From assembly GCA_944386965.1 (NCBI GenBank), contig CALXDE010000261.1, forward strand, positions 1 through 5,337: a stretch of 5,337 bases of DNA. The letters run 5' to 3'. The position numbers and the translations under genes are program-made. This DNA is from an uncultured Oscillospiraceae bacterium (lineage in GTDB: Bacteria; Bacillota_A; Clostridia; Oscillospirales; Oscillospiraceae). The notes under the pieces were generated by a model. It was not told where the DNA came from. It ran no database searches and saw nothing but the letters and a program-made list of their open reading frames with translations. This document shows positions 1-5,337 of this stretch, piece after piece. Every line of letters begins with the position of its first letter. Position 1 is the first letter of the stretch.

Positions 1-617
1 CGGCGGATGAGCTCCGTGCCGCCCAGCATGTTGCTCCACTGGTCGTTGCCGCCGAACTGCATGTTGCACCCGTAGTGCTGGAACATGTAGTAGAAGTCAT
101 AGGACTGCATAATCATGTAGTTGAACTCCAGGAAGGAGAGGCCCTTCTCCATGCGCTGCTTGTAGCACTCGGCCCGGAGCATGTTGTTCACGCTGAAGCA
201 GGCCCCTACCTCCCGCAGCAGCTCGATATAGTTGAGCTTTAAGAGCCAGTCGGCGTTGTTGAGCATCAGGGCCTTGCCCTCGGAGAAGTCGATGAACCGC
301 TCCATCTGCTTTTTGAAGCAGTTGCAGTTGTGCTCTATCGTCTCCGGGGTCATCATATTGCGCATGTCCGTGCGGCCGGAGGGGTCGCCGATGTAGCCGG
401 TGCCGCCGCCGATGAGGGCGATGGGCTTGTTGCCGGCCATCTGGAGCCGCTTCATCAGGCACAATGCCATAAAGTGGCCCACATGCAGGCTGTCGGCGGT
501 GGGGTCAAAGCCGATGTAGAAGGTGGCCTTGCCGTTGTTGACCATCTCCCGGATCTCCTCCTCGTTGGTGACCTGGGCGATGAGGCCCCGGGCCTGCAGT
601 TCCTCGTACACTTTCAT
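1..617 (-). CDS. tyrS: Tyrosyl-tRNA synthetase, N-terminal half (3' end outside window)
   Basis: This cytoplasmic class I aminoacyl-tRNA synthetase charges tRNA-Tyr with tyrosine using ATP. About 205 residues are visible, roughly half of the usual ~400, because the gene runs off the left edge; the KMSKS loop and the C-terminal S4-like tRNA-binding domain are therefore not seen. Visible signatures are [15 protein letters not shown] (residues 34-48, tyrosine pocket plus the HIGH motif as HVGH), [13 protein letters not shown] (70-82), [10 protein letters not shown] (168-177) and [10 protein letters not shown] (187-196), all characteristic of bacterial TyrRS. Two ATGs compete. The one at 621-623 lies 1 nt from the AGGAG, while the one at 615-617 has 7-nt spacing and gives the familiar MKVYEEL start, so I chose 617. 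The gene lies 41 nt downstream of the reductase gene and shares its tyrosine-type T-box leader. Identification is certain; only the start is arguable. Confidence 0.96.
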
Positions 618-658
618 ATCCATTCTCCTCTATGTTTTATGTATTGATTGAGTTCTAT

Positions 659-1195
659 TTATTGCTTTGTTCTTCTGCGGTAGATCAGCTCTGCCACGCC
701 ATTCTCCTGTCGCTGGTTTCCCAGCGACAGGGGCAGGCGCTCCAGTCCCGGCCTGAAGAGCGGAATCCCCGCCCCCAGCAGCACCGGCATCACACTCAGG
801 CGGAACTCCTCGATCTCCGGCAGGCACTGCTCCGCCACATCCGCGCCGCCGCAGATCCAGACCGCGCCGTCCACCGCTTCCCTGAGGCGGCGCGCCAGCT
901 CCGCGGCATTTCCCTGTAGAAAATGGACGCCCGTCGGGGCGTTCTCCTCAGGATGGCGTGTCAGAACGTATACCGGCTTTCCTGCATAAGGCCATATCTC
1001 CGGCGACAGCGCCCGGCGCACCTGGCGGTAGGTGCGTCCGCCCATGACGACAGCGCCCACGCCGCTCCAAAATTCACCGTATCCATAGTCCCCCTGGAAG
1101 GCGGCTTCCTCGCCGCCCAGCCAGTCCACACCGCCCGCGGCGTCAGCGATGTAGCCGTCCAGACTGAGGGAGATATATAGTACGACTTTTCCCAT
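659..1195 (-). CDS. Dihydrofolate reductase family protein (RibD C-terminal domain-like)
   Basis: A 178-aa protein of the RibD-C/dihydrofolate-reductase-like superfamily, which comprises small cytosolic NADPH-dependent reductases of the YyaP/YwjB kind; the true substrate is usually unknown. The whole length is one domain: the N-terminal strand LYISLSLDGYIA (6-17), GAVVMGGRTY (47-56), PVYVLTR (74-80), the cofactor-loop GG in WICGGADV (113-120), and PVLLGAGIPLF (137-147) near the C-terminus. All of these are typical of the family. An in-frame ATG four codons upstream (1205-1207) has no Shine-Dalgarno site, whereas ATG 1195 has GGAGG 5 nt away and gives the usual MGKVVLYIS start. The gene lies 71 nt after the T-box terminator and 41 nt before tyrS, so it should be induced with tyrS under tyrosine limitation. 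That location is unexpected for a reductase. Family is confident; substrate, and whether it has true DHFR activity, are unknown. Confidence 0.9.
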   Translation of the reverse strand: MGKVVLYISLSLDGYIADAAGGVDWLGGEEAAFQGDYGYGEFWSGVGAVVMGGRTYRQVRRALSPEIWPYAGKPVYVLTRHPEENAPTGVHFLQGNAAELARRLREAVDGAVWICGGADVAEQCLPEIEEFRLSVMPVLLGAGIPLFRPGLERLPLSLGNQRQENGVAELIYRRRTKQ

Positions 1196-1266
1196 GAAAG
1201 CCTCCATCCGCTGTCAGCTCCGCGGCACGCACTCTCAGACACCGCATTCTGCCGCCCGCCGACCGC

Positions 1267-1305
1267 AAAAAACAATCCGCCCCCTGTCCTTTCGGACAGA
1301 GGGCG
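1267..1305 (-). terminator. T-box regulated intrinsic terminator
   Basis: On the minus strand, CGCCCTCTGTCC and GGACAGGGGGCG form a 12-bp stem with one G-U pair, closed by a GAAA tetraloop (1278-1305). It is followed by ATTG and a six-T run (1267-1275). The 5' arm also contains the CCTCT needed for the competing antiterminator, so this is the off-state structure of the T-box switch. Confidence 0.93.
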
Positions 1306-1548
1306 TTGCAAACAAAACGCGGTACCACCTCTGGCTTCGCCGCCTCCTCGCGGAGACAGCCTCATGAAGTCCCGCACACAGGACCTCCGGCGCTGTATCG
1401 GGCGTACCCGGCGGCGCCTACTGGGACCTTTCGTCCGTTGGGGCCGCTGCTCCGGGATGTATTCCCGCCGCCGCCCTCTCCCCTTTTCACCGGCCAGGGG
1501 CTCTCTTGCCAGGACTCTGCGGCGCTACTTCTTCCCATCATCGCGTCA
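1267..1548 (-). promoter_or_regulatory. T-box leader (tRNA-sensing riboswitch), probable tyrosine specifier
   Basis: This is the untranslated leader of the reductase-tyrS transcript. It carries the conserved T-box sequence GGTGGTACCGCG (1318-1329), whose bulge pairs with the free CCA end of uncharged tRNA. Upstream are Stem I landmarks: GATGATGGGAAG and AAGTAG at its base (1525-1542), an AGAGAG tract (1501-1506) and GGTGAAAAGGGG (1480-1491). The specifier region reads GGGAA-UAC-AUCCCGGAGC. Aligned by its downstream AUCCCGGAGC to the equivalent stretch of known leaders, the specifier is UAC (1459-1461), coding Tyr and matching the downstream tyrS. AGAGG before the T-box can pair with CCTCT of the terminator 5' arm to form the antiterminator. 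When uncharged tRNA-Tyr binds, transcription should read through. The T-box identity is very firm; the specifier register is by eye. Confidence 0.93.
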
Positions 1549-1554
1549 CGTGGC

Positions 1555-1583
1555 ATTATACCGGGAAACAGGAGAATTGTCAA
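1555..1583 (-). promoter_or_regulatory. Sigma-70/SigA promoter of the T-box operon
   Basis: Perfect consensus TTGACA (-35, 1578-1583) and TATAAT (-10, 1555-1560) are separated by exactly 17 bp, placing the start of transcription near 1548 and just ahead of the T-box Stem I. The -35 box is only about 20 bp from the inverted repeat that marks the AT-rich element, so the host promoter is intact. Confidence 0.92.
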
Positions 1584-1602: not shown

Positions 1603-1619
1603 CTTCAATTCGTAAAGTA
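1603..1619. repeat. Left inverted repeat of candidate element (17 bp)
   Basis: CTTCAATTCGTAAAGTA is the exact reverse complement of 5321-5337. Identity stops on the inner side (A1620 against C5320); the outer side cannot be tested because the window ends. It lies at the change from GC-rich to AT-rich sequence, as expected for a transposon terminus. Confidence 0.75.
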
Positions 1620-1626
1620 AACAATA

Positions 1627-1650
1627 ATCCCCCGGCAAATGCCGGGGGAT
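1627..1650 (-). terminator. GC-rich hairpin just inside the left repeat, possible terminator
   Basis: ATCCCCCGGC and GCCGGGGGAT form a perfect 10-bp stem with a 4-nt loop (1637-1640). On the minus strand it is followed by TATTGTTTACTTT, a T-rich but interrupted tail, so it could stop transcripts from the cargo genes before they enter the T-box promoter region. On the plus strand it has no T run and sits directly before the ribosome-binding site of the small AUU ORF, where it could instead block readthrough from outside. The hairpin is certain; its role is inferred. Confidence 0.55.
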
Positions 1651-1668
1651 GGAAAGGAGGTTTAAAAA

Positions 1669-1818
1669 ATTAAAACAGTAAAACTTTTAAATTTAGATGA
1701 ATTAGAAAAATTGTCTGAACAAATTCAAAAGAGAAAAATTATTCGGAATAAGGAAGAATTGATGGAGGAAGTTCTAAAAGAATGGAAAGCTGTATTTGGT
1801 TTTATTCCTAAAAATTGA
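1669..1818 (+). CDS. Small charged protein with apparent AUU start (or ATG-lost remnant)
   Basis: A 49-codon open frame follows a perfect AGGAGG (1655-1660) with ideal 8-nt spacing, but the codon there is ATT. An in-frame TAA at 1663-1665 rules out an upstream start, and the next in-frame ATG is only at 1762, near the end. Read from ATT the product begins MKTVKLLNLDELEKLSE and ends WKAVFGFIPKN: short, rich in Lys and Glu, probably helical, with no membrane segment and no motif I recognise. AUU initiation is real but rare (infC is the classic case), so this is either a weakly translated gene or a gene silenced by a single ATG-to-ATT change. It is convergent with the zinc-ribbon gene and overlaps its 3' end by 11 nt. 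The codons are AT-rich like the rest of the element. Confidence 0.45.
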   Translation: MKTVKLLNLDELEKLSEQIQKRKIIRNKEELMEEVLKEWKAVFGFIPKN

Positions 1819-2041
1819 ATTTATTTAGTAAGACTTTTTTAATTTCTTTTGCTATGTTTAGGGTTGAGATCCAATCGTTATATTTACAGTAAGGACATTC
1901 AAAAAAGAAATCTTTGTCACGAAACACTTCATCACAATAACAATCTATTATTTTGCCACATTTGTCGCATACAATGCCTACTGTAGATTGGTGTTTCATA
2001 TATTCTTTAATATATGGCATATATGAAACTAAAGATTCCAT
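1808..2041 (-). CDS. Small zinc-ribbon protein, function unknown
   Basis: A 77-aa soluble protein with two Cys knuckles, C25-x2-C28 and C49-x2-C52, plus a C34-x-C36 pair between them. This is a zinc-ribbon-like arrangement with six cysteines that could bind one or two metal ions. The N-terminal ~20 residues (MESLVSYMPYIKEYMKHQ) and the C-terminal ~20 are probably helical; there is no signal or membrane segment. I do not recognise a named family. The start at 2041 has AGGAGG at 8 nt, but that site is buried in a strong RNA stem (2047-2092), suggesting restrained or conditional translation. It is the last gene of the minus-strand cargo run, 58 nt after the 52-aa membrane peptide, and its 3' end overlaps the convergent small ORF. 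Possible roles include nucleic-acid binding or a partner of the other cargo; neither is shown. Confidence 0.78.
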   Translation of the reverse strand: MESLVSYMPYIKEYMKHQSTVGIVCDKCGKIIDCYCDEVFRDKDFFFECPYCKYNDWISTLNIAKEIKKVLLNKFNF

Positions 2042-2046
2042 AAAAT

Positions 2047-2092
2047 CATCCTCCTAAATATGATACCTAATTGTACCATACTTAGGAGGATG
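2047..2092 (-). promoter_or_regulatory. 20-bp RNA stem sequestering the zinc-ribbon gene's ribosome-binding site
   Basis: Minus-strand RNA can fold 2073-2092 onto 2047-2066 as an unbroken 20-bp stem with a 6-nt loop (AAUUAG, 2067-2072). The two non-Watson-Crick positions (2058/2081 and 2063/2076) are G-U in minus-strand RNA but A-C in plus-strand RNA, so the structure fits the minus transcript only. The 3' arm contains the AGGAGG of the next gene and the 5' arm contains its complement CCUCCU. The stem is followed by only AUUUU, a poor terminator tail, so blocking of translation is the likelier role, with partial termination as an alternative. Confidence 0.65.
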
Positions 2093-2099
2093 TGGGAAG

Positions 2100-2258
2100 T
2101 TATTTTTTATCGTTTGGTCTGACGGCAACAACTATAATTCCAATAATTCCAAGTAAAAACCCCCACAAAAAGCCACCATTCATTCCCCGACCAGAGGAAA
2201 TAGATTTCGCAATAAAGCCGCAAATTAACAAGTAAATAAGTGACACAATAAAATACAT
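2100..2258 (-). CDS. 52-aa two-helix membrane peptide
   Basis: A small hydrophobic protein with two predicted membrane helices: MYFIVSLIYLLICGFIA (1-17), and GGFLWGFLLGIIGIIVVAV (about 28-46), separated by a short polar turn KSISSGRGMN and ending in the charged tail RPNDKK. The Gly-rich second helix followed by a short basic/acidic tail resembles many small unnamed Firmicute membrane proteins; no function is recognised. The start at 2258 is preceded by GGAAGGGG at about 6 nt. An in-frame ATG at 2277-2279 would add seven residues (MKRKGNI) but has no ribosome-binding site. It lies 41 nt after the 115-aa membrane protein gene in the same direction and 58 nt before the zinc-ribbon gene, so co-transcription is likely. 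Confidence 0.72.
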   Translation of the reverse strand: MYFIVSLIYLLICGFIAKSISSGRGMNGGFLWGFLLGIIGIIVVAVRPNDKK

Positions 2259-2299
2259 AATATTCCCCTTCCGTTTCATTATTCAAAAGAATATTCGCT

Positions 2300-2647
2300 T
2301 TAATCTGGAGGAGTATTTTGAGAAATATTATTTATTGTAGATTGATTGGCAGCCAGTAGTTGTACATGTCCATTTGCTATTTTCGATAAGTAGTAAATTG
2401 CAATGAATCCTACGCCCATTAAAGTGGATATAGCAGTCAAGACAAAGAATCCGGTTGCATAATTACCATTGATAATAAAATTATAGGCATCTCCGCCTAC
2501 ATAAGCATTATGGTACTCATATGGATAGAATTCTCCATTATCATAGTTAAACATTTTATCCATGCCAAGGCCCAAGAGAACGATTGAAGCAATAAATGAA
2601 ATAATCGACAAAATTATCCAGACTTTATTTCCTGTGGGCTTTTCCAT
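2300..2647 (-). CDS. 115-aa two-helix membrane protein, unknown function
   Basis: A conserved-looking hypothetical membrane protein. Helix 1 spans about residues 9-28 (WIILSIISFIASIVLLGLG) and helix 2 about 66-87 (GFFVLTAISTLMGVGFIAIYYL). Between them is an extracytoplasmic-type loop rich in Tyr, Asn and Gly (MFNYDNGEFYPYEY, then NAYVGGDAYNFIINGNYATG). A short polar tail, about 88-115, is rich in Asn, Gln and Ser. The NAYVGGDAYNFIINGNYATGFFVL pattern is familiar to me from unnamed Firmicute proteins, but I know no assigned role. AAGGAG precedes the ATG by about 9 nt. The gene follows the lipoprotein stop by 21 nt, implying an operon and perhaps a shared envelope function. A holin-like or immunity-type role is conceivable but unsupported. 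Confidence 0.83.
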   Translation of the reverse strand: MEKPTGNKVWIILSIISFIASIVLLGLGMDKMFNYDNGEFYPYEYHNAYVGGDAYNFIINGNYATGFFVLTAISTLMGVGFIAIYYLSKIANGHVQLLAANQSTINNISQNTPPD

Positions 2648-2668
2648 GTCAATATTCTCCTTTTTATA

Positions 2669-3331
2669 TTAGCTCAGTTCTTCTTGTATAGCATCATTTA
2701 TTAGTTGTAAATCAAAATCATCATCATTAGTCAAAGGGAGAGAACCTATATCAAAAATTCCATTTGAATATTCGGGAAATCCCTCTACTTTAGCGTCATC
2801 GCATAACAAAAAGGTTGATACTGTGTTTCCTCCGAATCCGTTTTGTGCTGAAATATCAACAAAATATGCAGAGCCATCTACCCCTAACGACATGTCCATA
2901 ATAGCTCGAATTGAAATTGAAGCAGGGTTCTTGAAAGAAGAAGCATACTTCAACAAACAATCAACAAAAGTTTTTTCTTCGTCAGATAAACTGTCATATG
3001 CGGTTTTTTGTAACACAGTTACAGAACATGATTCTATAATACCGTTTGATGATGATATGGTAATTGTTGTTTGTCCAGAAGATATCGCTGAAATAATTCC
3101 GTGTTCATCCACTACTGCAACCGTTTCGTCGGCAGATTCCCATTTCAACCCAGAATTTTCTGCCGTATCAGGGAAAATAGAATATGTAAGATGATAAGTT
3201 TCGCCTACAACAATTTCACAATCATTTGTTGACAATATAATTTTTTCTATTGCATGATTGCAAGAAGTTAATACTACGGTAATTAGAACAAGCAAAGCAC
3301 ATAATGGCATATAGAGGGTTGCTCGTTTCAT
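2669..3331 (-). CDS. Lipoprotein with bacterial Ig-like (BIG2) domain
   Basis: A 220-aa probable membrane-anchored lipoprotein. The N-terminus MKRA is followed by a hydrophobic stretch (8-20) and the lipobox L-T-S-C with the lipidation Cys at 24, so the mature protein should sit on the outer face of the membrane. Residues ~29-107 read as a BIG2-type Ig-like fold: KIILSTNDCEIVVGETYHL, WESADETVAVVDEHGIISAI, then SGQTTITISSSNG. These domains usually act in adhesion or as structural spacers. Residues ~112-220 form a second mixed domain (SLSDEEKTFVDCLLKYASSF, then an acidic end with NDDDFDLQL) that I do not recognise. ATG 3329-3331 follows AGGGAGG by 8 nt; a TTG directly upstream at 3332-3334 is a possible alternative start. 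The ribosome-binding site begins 4 nt after the transposase stop, and the 115-aa membrane gene follows 21 nt downstream. It is the first cargo gene. Confidence 0.85.
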   Translation of the reverse strand: MKRATLYMPLCALLVLITVVLTSCNHAIEKIILSTNDCEIVVGETYHLTYSIFPDTAENSGLKWESADETVAVVDEHGIISAISSGQTTITISSSNGIIESCSVTVLQKTAYDSLSDEEKTFVDCLLKYASSFKNPASISIRAIMDMSLGVDGSAYFVDISAQNGFGGNTVSTFLLCDDAKVEGFPEYSNGIFDIGSLPLTNDDDFDLQLINDAIQEELS

Positions 3332-3350
3332 CAAAAAATCCTCCCTAAAA

Positions 3351-4769
3351 TCACAACTTCGCCATAATACAATCCAATTTTGCCTTTACTTCTGCTGTAC
3401 ACACAGCATACAGCTTCATCATTTCAAGTAAAGTAATCACCCCGAACTCTAGTCCAACATAAAGTACGATGAAGCCTTGTACCTTGACAATGTAGTTTTT
3501 CAATACGACCGGCAACGACTTACCAAGATACTGCTCACCTTCTGGAAGCATCGTATAAAGCTGGAAAAATAAATACCCAAAAAGCACGGCAACAATGTGG
3601 AAAGTAATCACCTTTAACTTAGTGCTCTTAAAATCTTCAAGTTTCCAGAATTCTTTTAGCTGTCGGTAGTCTTCTTCTATTTCGGGACGCAGATTATAGG
3701 TTTTCAAAATATCTGCCGCTGATTTAGATGTATCCGTCGTAGCGAAAACGTAATAGTTATCAGCCTCTATGTCCCAAACGACACAAGCATTGATATCAAC
3801 ATTGGGAGGGCCGTGGTTACTACTATAATCTCCCCAATATGGGCCGAGGCCAGTGACCAAGCAAATCCTCTGTGTTGGGAAACGAGTGATAGGATGCTTT
3901 GCCCACTTGTTTTCTTCTTTGGCAATTTGTACTGCCATGTCATAAGCCTGCATGTGTTTTCTTAATGGGACATAGGTATCAACTTTTCTATTTTCTTTGA
4001 GATAGTTAATTAAATCCCGAGATAAGAAACCTCTGTCGTTTATCAGAATATCTCCTGGCTTCAACATAGGCGTGGTACGAATCATTTCTTCGCTGAGTGC
4101 CAGATCGTGGCAGTTTATGGGGCCAAATCGGATTTCTTCTATGATACCAGTATCTTTTACCAGTCCTCTAAGAGTTGCTAATTTGTAGCCTCTGGCCCGT
4201 TCTTCTAAACCGGAAGGACTGCGTTTGCTATAAGAAACACCAGCCCCTTCATAATTGGCATTAAAATAATTTACTTCAAGATCAGTGCAATCCAAAATAT
4301 GAATGTTAGCTTCTATGTCTAACTTTTTCATAATTTGATTTTGAACTGCTGAATTATAGCCCTGGATTAGAATATCTGGCGTATATTTGCCAATTAAAAA
4401 TCGTAAGCTACCTTCCTGCATTAAGCCCTGTTCTAACCTACCCTCGGTATCTATCAGAGTATATCCGAGCTTGGCTAGTGTCCTGTGATCGGTTAAAGCA
4501 AAAGGAATATCAGTAAGGCTTGTTTTGACCTTCATTTTAGCGGCAATCGCAGCAGCCCAAATGAGATCATATGGAATGGTTGTGTTGTGTGCTCTGTAGT
4601 CTGGAATACTCTGACTGATAGAAGAAAGGATACCTTCGGTGTACATAGCAAGAATAATTTCATCTATTAGATTTGTTGTACTGAGCATTGCGGCATCAAG
4701 GTTTCCGTTCCTTACTTGCTCAAGAACAGATTCCCGATTCTCTTTACAAACTCTAATCACTATGCACAC
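3351..4769 (-). CDS. IS4-family DDE transposase
   Basis: A 472-aa transposase of the DDE_Tnp_1/IS4 type, which cuts and pastes its element by a DDE RNase-H-fold active site. The first acidic residue is in HILDCTDLE (D160 or D163), the second in ILINDRGFLS (D245), and the third in the IS4 signature Y-x2-R-x3-E-x6-K, matched exactly by Y358, R361, E365 and K372 within YNLRPEIEEDYRQLKEFW. All catalytic positions are present, length is normal for the family and no frameshift is seen, so it may be active. The long stretch between the second D and E (246-357) is the usual beta-rich insertion of IS4 enzymes. GTG 4769 has AGGAGG at 6 nt; GTG 4760 has a second AGGAGG at 8 nt and is nearly as good, giving 469 aa. 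It is divergent from the XRE gene and reads directly into the cargo genes. The IS4 subgroup is not determined. Confidence 0.93.
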   Translation of the reverse strand: MCIVIRVCKENRESVLEQVRNGNLDAAMLSTTNLIDEIILAMYTEGILSSISQSIPDYRAHNTTIPYDLIWAAAIAAKMKVKTSLTDIPFALTDHRTLAKLGYTLIDTEGRLEQGLMQEGSLRFLIGKYTPDILIQGYNSAVQNQIMKKLDIEANIHILDCTDLEVNYFNANYEGAGVSYSKRSPSGLEERARGYKLATLRGLVKDTGIIEEIRFGPINCHDLALSEEMIRTTPMLKPGDILINDRGFLSRDLINYLKENRKVDTYVPLRKHMQAYDMAVQIAKEENKWAKHPITRFPTQRICLVTGLGPYWGDYSSNHGPPNVDINACVVWDIEADNYYVFATTDTSKSAADILKTYNLRPEIEEDYRQLKEFWKLEDFKSTKLKVITFHIVAVLFGYLFFQLYTMLPEGEQYLGKSLPVVLKNYIVKVQGFIVLYVGLEFGVITLLEMMKLYAVCTAEVKAKLDCIMAKL

Positions 4770-4789
4770 CTCCTTCCTCCTCTAATTCT

Positions 4790-4859
4790 ACTTATAGTGT
4801 AGCACAATTCTACAAATAATTCAACTATAAGTTTTGCATTTTTCCACCAAATGTATAGT
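4790..4859. promoter_or_regulatory. Candidate operator region between transposase and XRE genes
   Basis: ACTTATAGT (4790-4798) and ACTATAAGT (4824-4832) form an exact 9-bp inverted repeat. A third TATAGT lies at 4854-4859. The three half-sites start at 4793, 4824 and 4854, about 30-31 bp apart, close to three DNA turns. They flank or overlap the transposase promoter and lie just upstream of the XRE promoter, as expected for a small repressor controlling both genes. Binding is inferred. Confidence 0.45.
4796..4824 (-). promoter_or_regulatory. Probable promoter of transposase and cargo genes
   Basis: On the minus strand, TTGAAT (4819-4824) and TACACT (4796-4801) are separated by 17 bp. The spacer holds the palindrome TGTAG-N7-CTACA (4798-4814), which overlaps the -10 box, so a bound repressor here would block RNA polymerase. 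Transcription would begin about 20 nt upstream of the ribosome-binding sites. Confidence 0.6.
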
Positions 4860-4868
4860 TTATTTGGG

Positions 4869-4874
4869 TACAAT
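4869..4874 (+). promoter_or_regulatory. Possible -10 box of the XRE regulator gene
   Basis: TACAAT preceded by GGG lies 22 bp before the start codon. No convincing -35 box is present 16-18 bp upstream, so this promoter, if real, is weak or depends on another factor. A transcript from here would have a leader of only about 15 nt, containing the GAGGTGA ribosome-binding site. Confidence 0.35.
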
Positions 4875-4896
4875 AAATTGAATTGAGGTGAGCAAA

Positions 4897-5289
4897 ATGC
4901 AAACTTTAGGGGACAGAATCAAGGCATACAGAATCTCAATTAAAATGACACAAATGGATTTTGCCGCAAGGCTTGGCATAACGGGTTCTTCTGTTTCAGC
5001 ATATGAGAATGGGACAAGATTGCCGTCTTATGAAGTGCTGGTTAAAATAGCTGATGCTCTTGGTGTAACTACTGATGAGCTTTTAGGCCGGAAGAAGAAT
5101 GATAAGGTCATAATCGATGTGACTGATCTGACACCTCGGGAAAGAAATGTTATCCAGGAATTGATAGATTTGTTGACGGAAAAAGAAGAAAAGAATCCCA
5201 CAATAAAAGCAACGCTTGTATCTACAACTGTAAATACAGGCTACGGATTAAAGAAAAATAAAAAGAGCCTAAAAGGCTCTTTGGATTAA
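4897..5289 (+). CDS. XRE/Cro-type helix-turn-helix transcriptional regulator
   Basis: A 130-aa DNA-binding protein. Residues 6-62 form an HTH_3 (XRE/Cro/CI) domain: LGDRIKAYRISIKMTQMDFA, the turn LGITGSS, the recognition helix SSVSAYENGTRLP (31-43), and the closing IADALGVTTDELL (51-63). The rest (about 70-104, VIIDVTDLTPRERNVIQELI, then a Lys/Glu-rich stretch) is probably a helical dimerisation tail, and the last 25 residues are Lys-rich and likely flexible. GAGGTGA lies 5 nt before ATG 4897; a GTG at 4888 overlaps that site and is unlikely. It is divergent from the transposase across about 127 bp carrying repeated half-sites, which fits a repressor of transposase/cargo and of itself. No toxin partner or peptidase (ImmA) domain is visible. 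Confidence 0.9.
   Translation: MQTLGDRIKAYRISIKMTQMDFAARLGITGSSVSAYENGTRLPSYEVLVKIADALGVTTDELLGRKKNDKVIIDVTDLTPRERNVIQELIDLLTEKEEKNPTIKATLVSTTVNTGYGLKKNKKSLKGSLD
5262..5282 (+). other. Hairpin inside the end of the XRE coding region
   Basis: AAAGAGCCT and AGGCTCTTT form a 9-bp stem with an AAA loop, overlapping the codons for the last residues (KSLKGSL). It is followed by GGATT rather than a T run, so alone it is a poor terminator. It may protect the 3' end of the mRNA or pause polymerase ahead of the terminator 9 nt downstream. Confidence 0.5.
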
Positions 5290-5290
5290 G

Positions 5291-5319
5291 AAAGAGGCTG
5301 GATAACCCAGCCTCTTTTT
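5291..5319 (+). terminator. Intrinsic terminator after the XRE gene
   Basis: AAAGAGGCTGG and CCAGCCTCTTT form an 11-bp stem with a 5-nt loop, and T residues continue to 5319, so this is a standard Rho-independent terminator. It starts directly after the XRE stop codon and ends 1 nt before the right inverted repeat. The A-rich 5' flank also gives some T-run character on the opposite strand, so it may work against incoming transcripts too. Confidence 0.88.
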
Positions 5320-5320
5320 C

Positions 5321-5337
5321 TACTTTACGAATTGAAG
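5321..5337. repeat. Right inverted repeat of candidate element (17 bp, cut by window end)
   Basis: TACTTTACGAATTGAAG is the exact reverse complement of 1603-1619. The match reaches the last base of the window, so the repeat may be longer. It lies 1 nt after the terminator tail. Confidence 0.75.

Follow-up and report, generated by a model that had tools for sequence, protein, structure and literature searches.

The window analyzed here is a stretch of 5,337 nucleotides from an uncultured Oscillospiraceae bacterium (GenBank assembly GCA_944386965.1, contig CALXDE010000261.1, forward strand), in which GC-rich chromosome (bases 1-1550) lies left of an AT-rich block of 3,735 bp (1603-5337) with an exact 17-bp inverted repeat at its borders. 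The block encodes a transposase of the IS4 family, a divergent XRE regulator and a set of putative envelope genes, and is the probable passenger transposon that this report describes. GC content per 500 bases was 0.58-0.66 fully left of the block vs 0.32-0.43 fully inside it. The arms of the repeat (left, 1603-1624, plus strand, the cargo-side end; right, 5316-5337, minus strand, the transposase-side end) are 22 nt long and 91% identical, with the outermost 17 bp exact. In 300 block-wise shuffles of the window, which never mixed its two compositional blocks, exact inverted matches without overlap peaked at 10-16 bp, and a 17-bp match was reached in 0/300 shuffles. This control counts exact non-overlapping matches and replaced versions that used a 12-bp threshold or included palindromes; in the version counting palindromes, 11/300 shuffles reached 18-20 bp. 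Terminator-like hairpins are predicted just inside both ends, one at 1627-1650 (minus strand) facing out of the cargo genes (fold -21.8; shuffle mean -11.0, standard deviation (sd) 2.6) and one at 5289-5319 (plus strand) behind the XRE gene (fold -32.4; shuffle mean -13.4, sd 3.2). The window sequence terminates exactly at the right repeat (5337), where the source contig probably stops as well; assemblies often break at repeated elements. Because the contig ends there, the target duplication of the window's own element is unreadable; the last 8 bases left of 1603 are TCCCTCCA.

The transposase gene (3351-4760, minus strand) encodes a 469-amino-acid (aa) DDE protein that matched Pfam DDE_Tnp_1 at 40.4 bits (cut-off 23); its best NCBIfam match was IS4_1 at 70.4 bits, under the cut-off of 115. 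According to the family survey, IS4-family transposases have the DDE spacing D(60-110)D(100-150)E and a Y(2)R(3)E(6)K motif, with target duplications ranging from 7 to 13 bp across subgroups (PMC2266710). The motif Y355-x2-R358-x3-E362-x6-K369 was invariant in 36/36 aligned transposases, and the spacings in the same 36-row alignment (D160-D242, 82; D242-E362, 120) fit the family rule, with D160 chosen over D157 as the likely catalytic residue. The protein database contains 975 homologues, the best at 95%; a profile search of solved structures gave none at E 0.01, and neither plasmid nor phage records contained a relative of the transposase, the whole unit being likewise absent from the plasmid records. 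Divergent from the transposase gene, 4897-5289 (plus strand) encodes an XRE regulator (HTH_3, 61.8 bits).

Four minus-strand genes lie behind the transposase gene. Directly behind it, after a gap of 16 bp, is a 221-aa lipoprotein gene (2669-3334) whose product has a lipobox, an Ig-like Big_2 domain (38.9 bits) and a C-terminal SAQNGFGGN domain. The judgeable matches listed in a fold search with the lipoprotein model were Ig-like domains, the C-terminal domain had no fold match of its own among the best 50 of each library, and no relative of the lipoprotein was found in plasmid records. Then come a 115-aa membrane protein (2300-2647) with a NAYVGGDAYNxIIN motif and 204 homologues in the protein database, and a 59-aa small membrane protein (2100-2279) with a weak match (E 2e-4) to the phage membrane-protein family phrog_19123. 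The membrane nature of both was read by eye, and the 115-aa protein was modelled as two helices. The last gene (1808-2041) encodes a 77-aa cysteine-pair protein, a putative zinc ribbon with three cysteine pairs by eye and a Zn_ribbon_3 match (E 0.005) below cut-off. A 20-bp stem (90%) at 2047-2092 hides the ribosome site AGGAGGATG of this 77-aa gene (start codon 2041), possibly as a translational control or a cassette boundary. Convergent with the cargo is a 49-codon frame (1669-1818, plus strand) with a ribosome site AGGAGG, ATT as its sole start, a weak RHH_1 match (E 0.055) and no clear homologue. The four proteins encoded behind the transposase gene may act at the cell envelope.

The original prediction had named an exact 17-bp inverted repeat around the AT-rich block, an intact IS4-type transposase with DDE and Y-x2-R-x3-E-x6-K signatures and a divergent XRE regulator, all of which are borne out here. 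Within the cargo it had proposed, the lipoprotein and the two small membrane reading frames stand, while the zinc ribbon is weakly supported by the sub-threshold match and the cysteine pairs read by eye. The 49-codon frame had not been noted there.

Cargo-bearing relatives share the ends and are flanked by target duplications

Genome scans with the single transposase were empty, while scans with the 36-sequence alignment located the transposase at 19 loci in genomes and 3 in the virus collection. In samples of whole genomes, the starting genomes included, matches at the set limits occurred in 2/394, 5/391, 3/400, 1/397 and 3/288; many of these matches are fragments, and the counts are not a frequency estimate. 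Ends and duplications were checked in 13 units, one of them the window's. Both ends are known for seven relatives with cargo; all of these carry the end CTTCAATTCG-N-AAAGTA seen in the window, or a variant of it, and all seven (7/7) are flanked by an exact target duplication of 8 or 10 bp: TTATTTCA for L001, ATACTTTC for L003, TTCCTTTC for L004, GTACTATT for L009, AACTCCTC for L095 and TTAAATAT for G779 (8 bp each), and TTCTTCTTTA for L007 (10 bp). The last five bases of the right end of L095 are degenerate, and this end was located via its duplication. Cargo units measure 2.8-5.9 kb, and once 26.6 kb, and 6 of the 14 ends of the seven relatives fold more than 2 sd below their shuffles. Duplications were also found in L013, a bare insertion sequence (IS), and in L015 (1.1 kb), so that a duplication within the IS4 range flanks 9/12 relatives' units (8 bp in six, 10 in two, 11 in one). 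L010 and L016 showed no target duplication with both ends read, and L008 runs out at a contig end. The L015 unit (7919-9004; 1,086 bp) has both ends, a truncated transposase and an 11-bp duplication, and is probably a non-autonomous form.

The right flank of L001 was sought in ten genomes of its genus and gave nine matches, one of them in the genome that bears L001 itself. Among the eight other genomes, six lack the 3.6-kb unit and have the joined flanks aligned over their full length (75-83% identity); the intergenic sequence around the junction has diverged, and the target bases are poorly conserved there. These empty sites indicate a joint arrival of the XRE, transposase, lipoprotein and zinc-ribbon genes in L001. 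In the relatives, the ends, transposase, helix-turn-helix (HTH) regulator and cargo form one mobile unit, as had been claimed for the window.

Viral records contained 17 matches to the end motif. Two were tied to a transposase (L046, in the record of L022, and L057, in that of L021), and the remainder are probably due to chance.

A transposase clade with its own HTH gene

A 14-row tree split 11 transposases of the window's type from three bare ISs with branch support of 100/99. The 11 comprise the window, the seven relatives bounded at both ends and the partial units L002, L005 and L020; the bare ISs are L008, L010 and L091, one end being identified for L091. Absent from the tree are L013, whose coordinates as set ran through a stop, the fragments L092, L094, L011 and L022, and the truncated L012 and L014-L019. 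Labels on the clade's records include Clostridia, Bacilli and Gastranaerophilales.

In eight of the 11 tree units, and in fragment L092, the transposase gene is preceded by an HTH gene on the opposite strand. These genes fall into two groups, one in the window, L001, L002, L020, G779 and L092 (38-57% local identity) and one in L003, L005 and L009 (54-66%). HTH distances tracked transposase distances (Mantel r 0.60, p 0.0064, 9 units), a signal much of which may be driven by the split into two HTH groups. The regulator belongs to the element. Since G779, the outermost clade unit as drawn, has the HTH gene, a simple reading would be that the gene was there early and was lost later.

In the window, the inverted pair ACTTATAGT / ACTATAAGT, with 34-bp spacing, brackets a transposase promoter TTGAAT-17-TACACT (4790-4832, minus strand), which was read by eye and was not reported by a promoter scan. 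This pair (p 0.010) is a candidate operator, which we offer as a lead; L001, L002 and L092 have inverted pairs of different sequence spaced 31-33 bp apart. In the window, L001, L002, L020 and fragment L022, a co-directional gene follows the transposase gene after 2-23 bp, gaps that depend on start placement in the list of open reading frames (ORFs); in G779 the gap is 91 bp. Together, the operator and operon features are at most suggestive of XRE control of the cargo.

Cargo differs from unit to unit and includes, in one relative, a predicted defence pair

The cargo mix differs in every unit, with some families recurring. L001 and L002 carry a lipoprotein and a zinc-ribbon-like protein, with Pfam matches below cut-off. 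L003 carries two membrane proteins, an XRE protein and a lipoprotein that matches the phage family phrog_806 and the uncharacterised solved beta-sandwich 5bxg. L004 carries a zinc ribbon above cut-off, a membrane protein and a protein read by eye as ribbon-helix-helix, and L009 one membrane-anchored ORF and an XRE gene. The cargo of L007 consists of a zinc ribbon (above cut-off) with the C-terminal domain of the window lipoprotein, a membrane protein and an XRE protein, plus two long ORFs that look phage-structural by eye, the tested one having no Pfam match. Recurring families include this C-terminal domain (41% over 63 aa between the window and L007), the L001 lipoprotein (in L020), a 58-60-aa membrane protein (L003, L005 and L007), a second XRE protein (L003 and L007) and the small protein of L004 (in L095). 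A relative of the window's 115-aa membrane protein stands beside an element end in G009:C232 (42%, E 2e-11) and was recovered a second time by a profile search. By tblastn, none of the fetched loci matched the 59-aa, 77-aa or 49-codon frame of the window, which argues against a fixed module.

The largest unit, G779, measures 26,638 bp between its ends and carries a small membrane protein, the transposase, an XRE protein and, behind the transposase gene, AriA/AriB (L085 7091-9396). An AAA_15 ATPase and a DUF4435 protein stand side by side, the arrangement that defines PARIS, and are predicted to form a PARIS-type defence pair; PtuA models also match the ATPase. A further block (L085/L086) holds a SocA/Panacea protein, a relaxase, a serine recombinase and, by eye, restriction-like genes. 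Because the outer 8-bp duplication of G779 is intact, this block is probably a later arrival. By the cas-like genes and the repeat array that were recognised by eye on the left side of the element, the IMG/VR record of G779 reads as bacterial chromosome.

Cargo families occur in phage-like contexts and beside another transposase

In the IMG/VR virus collection, 20 loci contained relatives of the window membrane protein and two contained the lipoprotein C-terminal domain; the exact 10-bp core of the element end was found in 0/22 of these loci. Portal-, head- and tail-like genes, integrase and CI-like repressors were recognized around them by eye from ORF translations. A lipoprotein gene stood at most two genes from the membrane-protein relative in 5/20 loci (19 evaluable, L109 being not evaluable), and lipoprotein ORFs made up 6/71 near vs 3/216 far ORFs (Fisher p 0.008), a test that uses our own lipobox rule on a set in which some loci (L104, L105) are near copies, both of which count against it. 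The annotated Pasteurella phage Pmp1 has a membrane-protein relative at 51% over 53 aa. Four membrane-protein homologues (P0141, P0148, P0154 and P0243) seem by eye to be fused to zinc ribbons; such fusions would tie both cargo types functionally.

At L118 (2747-5566), a transposase of the IS1595 type, unrelated in family to that of the window, adjoins an XRE / zinc-ribbon-QNGFGGN / membrane set like that of L007, the XRE likeness being judged by eye. IS1595 elements carry passengers. No ends were found at L118, and no clean inverted repeat around it. The L007-like gene set may be common to unrelated transposases.

Comparison with known passenger-bearing elements

Passenger-bearing IS4 elements are already known, and the unit in the window would be a variation on them. 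Listings from the open-access literature showed no description of this clade, of the HTH gene or of the envelope cargo. Passenger genes of the IS231 subgroup include resistance, virulence and metabolism determinants and unknown ORFs, and the elements described here resemble this subgroup in their DDE/YREK signature, a duplication near 10 bp, a single inverted repeat per end and passengers inside the unit (PMC2266710). The terminal bases, however, are not those of IS231, whose ends read CAT... whereas the ends here are CTTCAATTCG..., with CTT as terminal bases; in addition, the extra DNA of IS231 lies between the left end and the transposase, whereas here the passengers lie behind the transposase and the HTH gene in front (PMC2266710). 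The ISPepr1 subgroup is described with the end YT-AA-YTT---A, a size of 1500-1600 bp, direct repeats of 7-8 bp and no passengers reported there (PMC2266710). Its direct repeat is the nearest listed in length (7-8 bp vs mostly 8 here), and YT-AA-Y partially matches TTCAATT after a one-base shift, whereas the cargo units (2.8-5.9 kb, once 26.6 kb) exceed its 1.5-1.6 kb; judged by description, the resemblance is partial (PMC2266710). The IS4-like ISSsu2 composites of Streptococcus suis, reported in 2024, likewise combine an IS4-like transposase with passengers, including the regulators padR and marR; unlike the unit in the window, they are composites with transposases at both ends, have the end CAATGTCATTAAGTTAA and carry putative virulence-associated passengers (PMC10886379).

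For the cargo, the Ltp-type superinfection-exclusion lipoproteins of temperate phages are described as moron-like surface lipoproteins that block DNA injection (PMC3952083). The window lipoprotein resembles them only in kind. The PARIS pair AriA/AriB is present in the relative G779, with none in the window.

Interpretation and alternatives

The block is best explained, with good though incomplete confidence, as an IS4-family passenger transposon that is observed as a unit in its relatives and that would have XRE control and, less certainly, phage-exclusion cargo. The CTTCAATTCG ends would be the substrate of the transposase, in the manner of other DDE/YREK enzymes, and the divergent XRE protein would bind between both genes, hold down the transposase and also restrain the lipoprotein and membrane genes behind it as one operon. 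The hairpins inside both ends would insulate the unit, and the envelope cargo would consist of moron-type proteins for phage exclusion, by which the element would earn its upkeep. Phage exclusion is our preferred role for the cargo, a tentative preference that stops somewhat short of even confidence; it stems from the phage-like contexts and from AriA/AriB in one relative, with Ltp-type lipoproteins as the model. A bolder version, in which an undescribed repressor-bearing IS4-type lineage ferries prophage-derived exclusion and defence genes, co-expressed under one XRE switch, and swaps cassettes with IS1595 types, is possible and rather doubtful.

Several observations pull in the other direction. 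The right flank of the window is missing, so the duplication evidence comes from the relatives alone, and two of the eight congeners of L001 align by the right part alone. L002 and L005 have one end and L020 no clear end (its poor candidate end has two mismatches), and their cargo was assigned by position. L004, L007 and L095 have no HTH gene upstream of the transposase. With regard to the operator, the pair was significant singly in the window alone; the p values of the three relatives were 0.065, 0.09 and 0.16, five units had no spaced inverted pair, and the joint p of 0.035 was obtained with a spacing range picked after a first look. Cargo in L003, L004, L007 and L009 is mostly oriented towards the transposase gene, and therefore one operon cannot be general. 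On the side of phage exclusion, PADLOC gave no convincing model for any of the four cargo proteins in the window, phage records contained nothing that tblastn matched to the L003 lipoprotein, and lipoproteins and small membrane proteins are common.

That a bare IS4-type IS merely sits beside or inside an older genomic island, the far repeat being another copy and the cargo and regulator not belonging to one unit, would be compatible with the invisible target duplication of the window and with the existence of bare ISs, namely L008 and L010 in the sister clade, and L013. This is very unlikely, as the relatives' duplications flank the outer ends with cargo inside in all seven units, the L001 empty sites lack the entire 3.6 kb, the HTH gene and transposase diverge together, and no second transposase was recognised among the window ORFs. 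A different objection concerns the XRE gene, which could, together with the passengers, be a captured prophage lysogeny region without a role in transposase regulation. The XRE protein does score best against phage-type regulators (phrog_8, 1.4e-24; the RstR-type NF041951 below cut-off), but its position upstream and divergent of the transposase is fixed whatever the cargo in 8/11 tree units, and it tracks the transposase, which makes such a capture improbable. The closest competitor to phage exclusion is a cargo that serves the transposon or the host envelope, for example in stress sensing, with XRE as a stress switch timing transposition. The apparent fusions of zinc-ribbon-like and membrane domains would suit a sensor, and the cargo lies directly behind the transposase gene; against this, contigs of the virus collection contain further members of the membrane and lipoprotein-domain families at a distance from element ends, and one relative bears AriA/AriB. 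We grant this explanation a modest chance, with phage exclusion retained as the preferred role.

The search for further insertions recovered the ends in relatives and left the window's 59-aa and 77-aa proteins unmatched; the envelope module of the original prediction survives as families that recur across units and not as a fixed set. A transposase moved alone with different ends, which would have undercut the proposal, exists only as the bare-IS sister clade with a related end. For two cargo families, relatives do occur without this transposase, in virus-collection contigs and beside the IS1595-type transposase, but not as an ancestral version of the locus.

Should the cargo prove to act against phages, exclusion genes of the prophage type and defence systems would have, in short transposons, a means of spreading that needs no phage. 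The genes that immediately follow the transposase gene offer a compact system for testing.

Flanking genes and other observations

In the chromosomal flank (3-1583, minus strand), a T-box leader (84.6 bits, below the gathering score of 93) with a 12-of-12 promoter at 1583-1555 is followed by a RibD_C/DHFR-like gene and then by the incomplete gene of a class I tRNA synthetase (W/Y type), which we read as tyrS. The element is inserted ∼20 bp upstream of the T-box promoter.

Seven transposase fragments (L033, L035-L040) occur in a single genome, G012, six of them at contig ends; we read them as copies of a relative that are broken or were collapsed at repeats. In a 161-kb IMG/VR contig, L022 (1-1776) contains one element end and two small membrane-protein ORFs; its neighbour genes appear phage-like by our reading, and a phage vehicle is possible.

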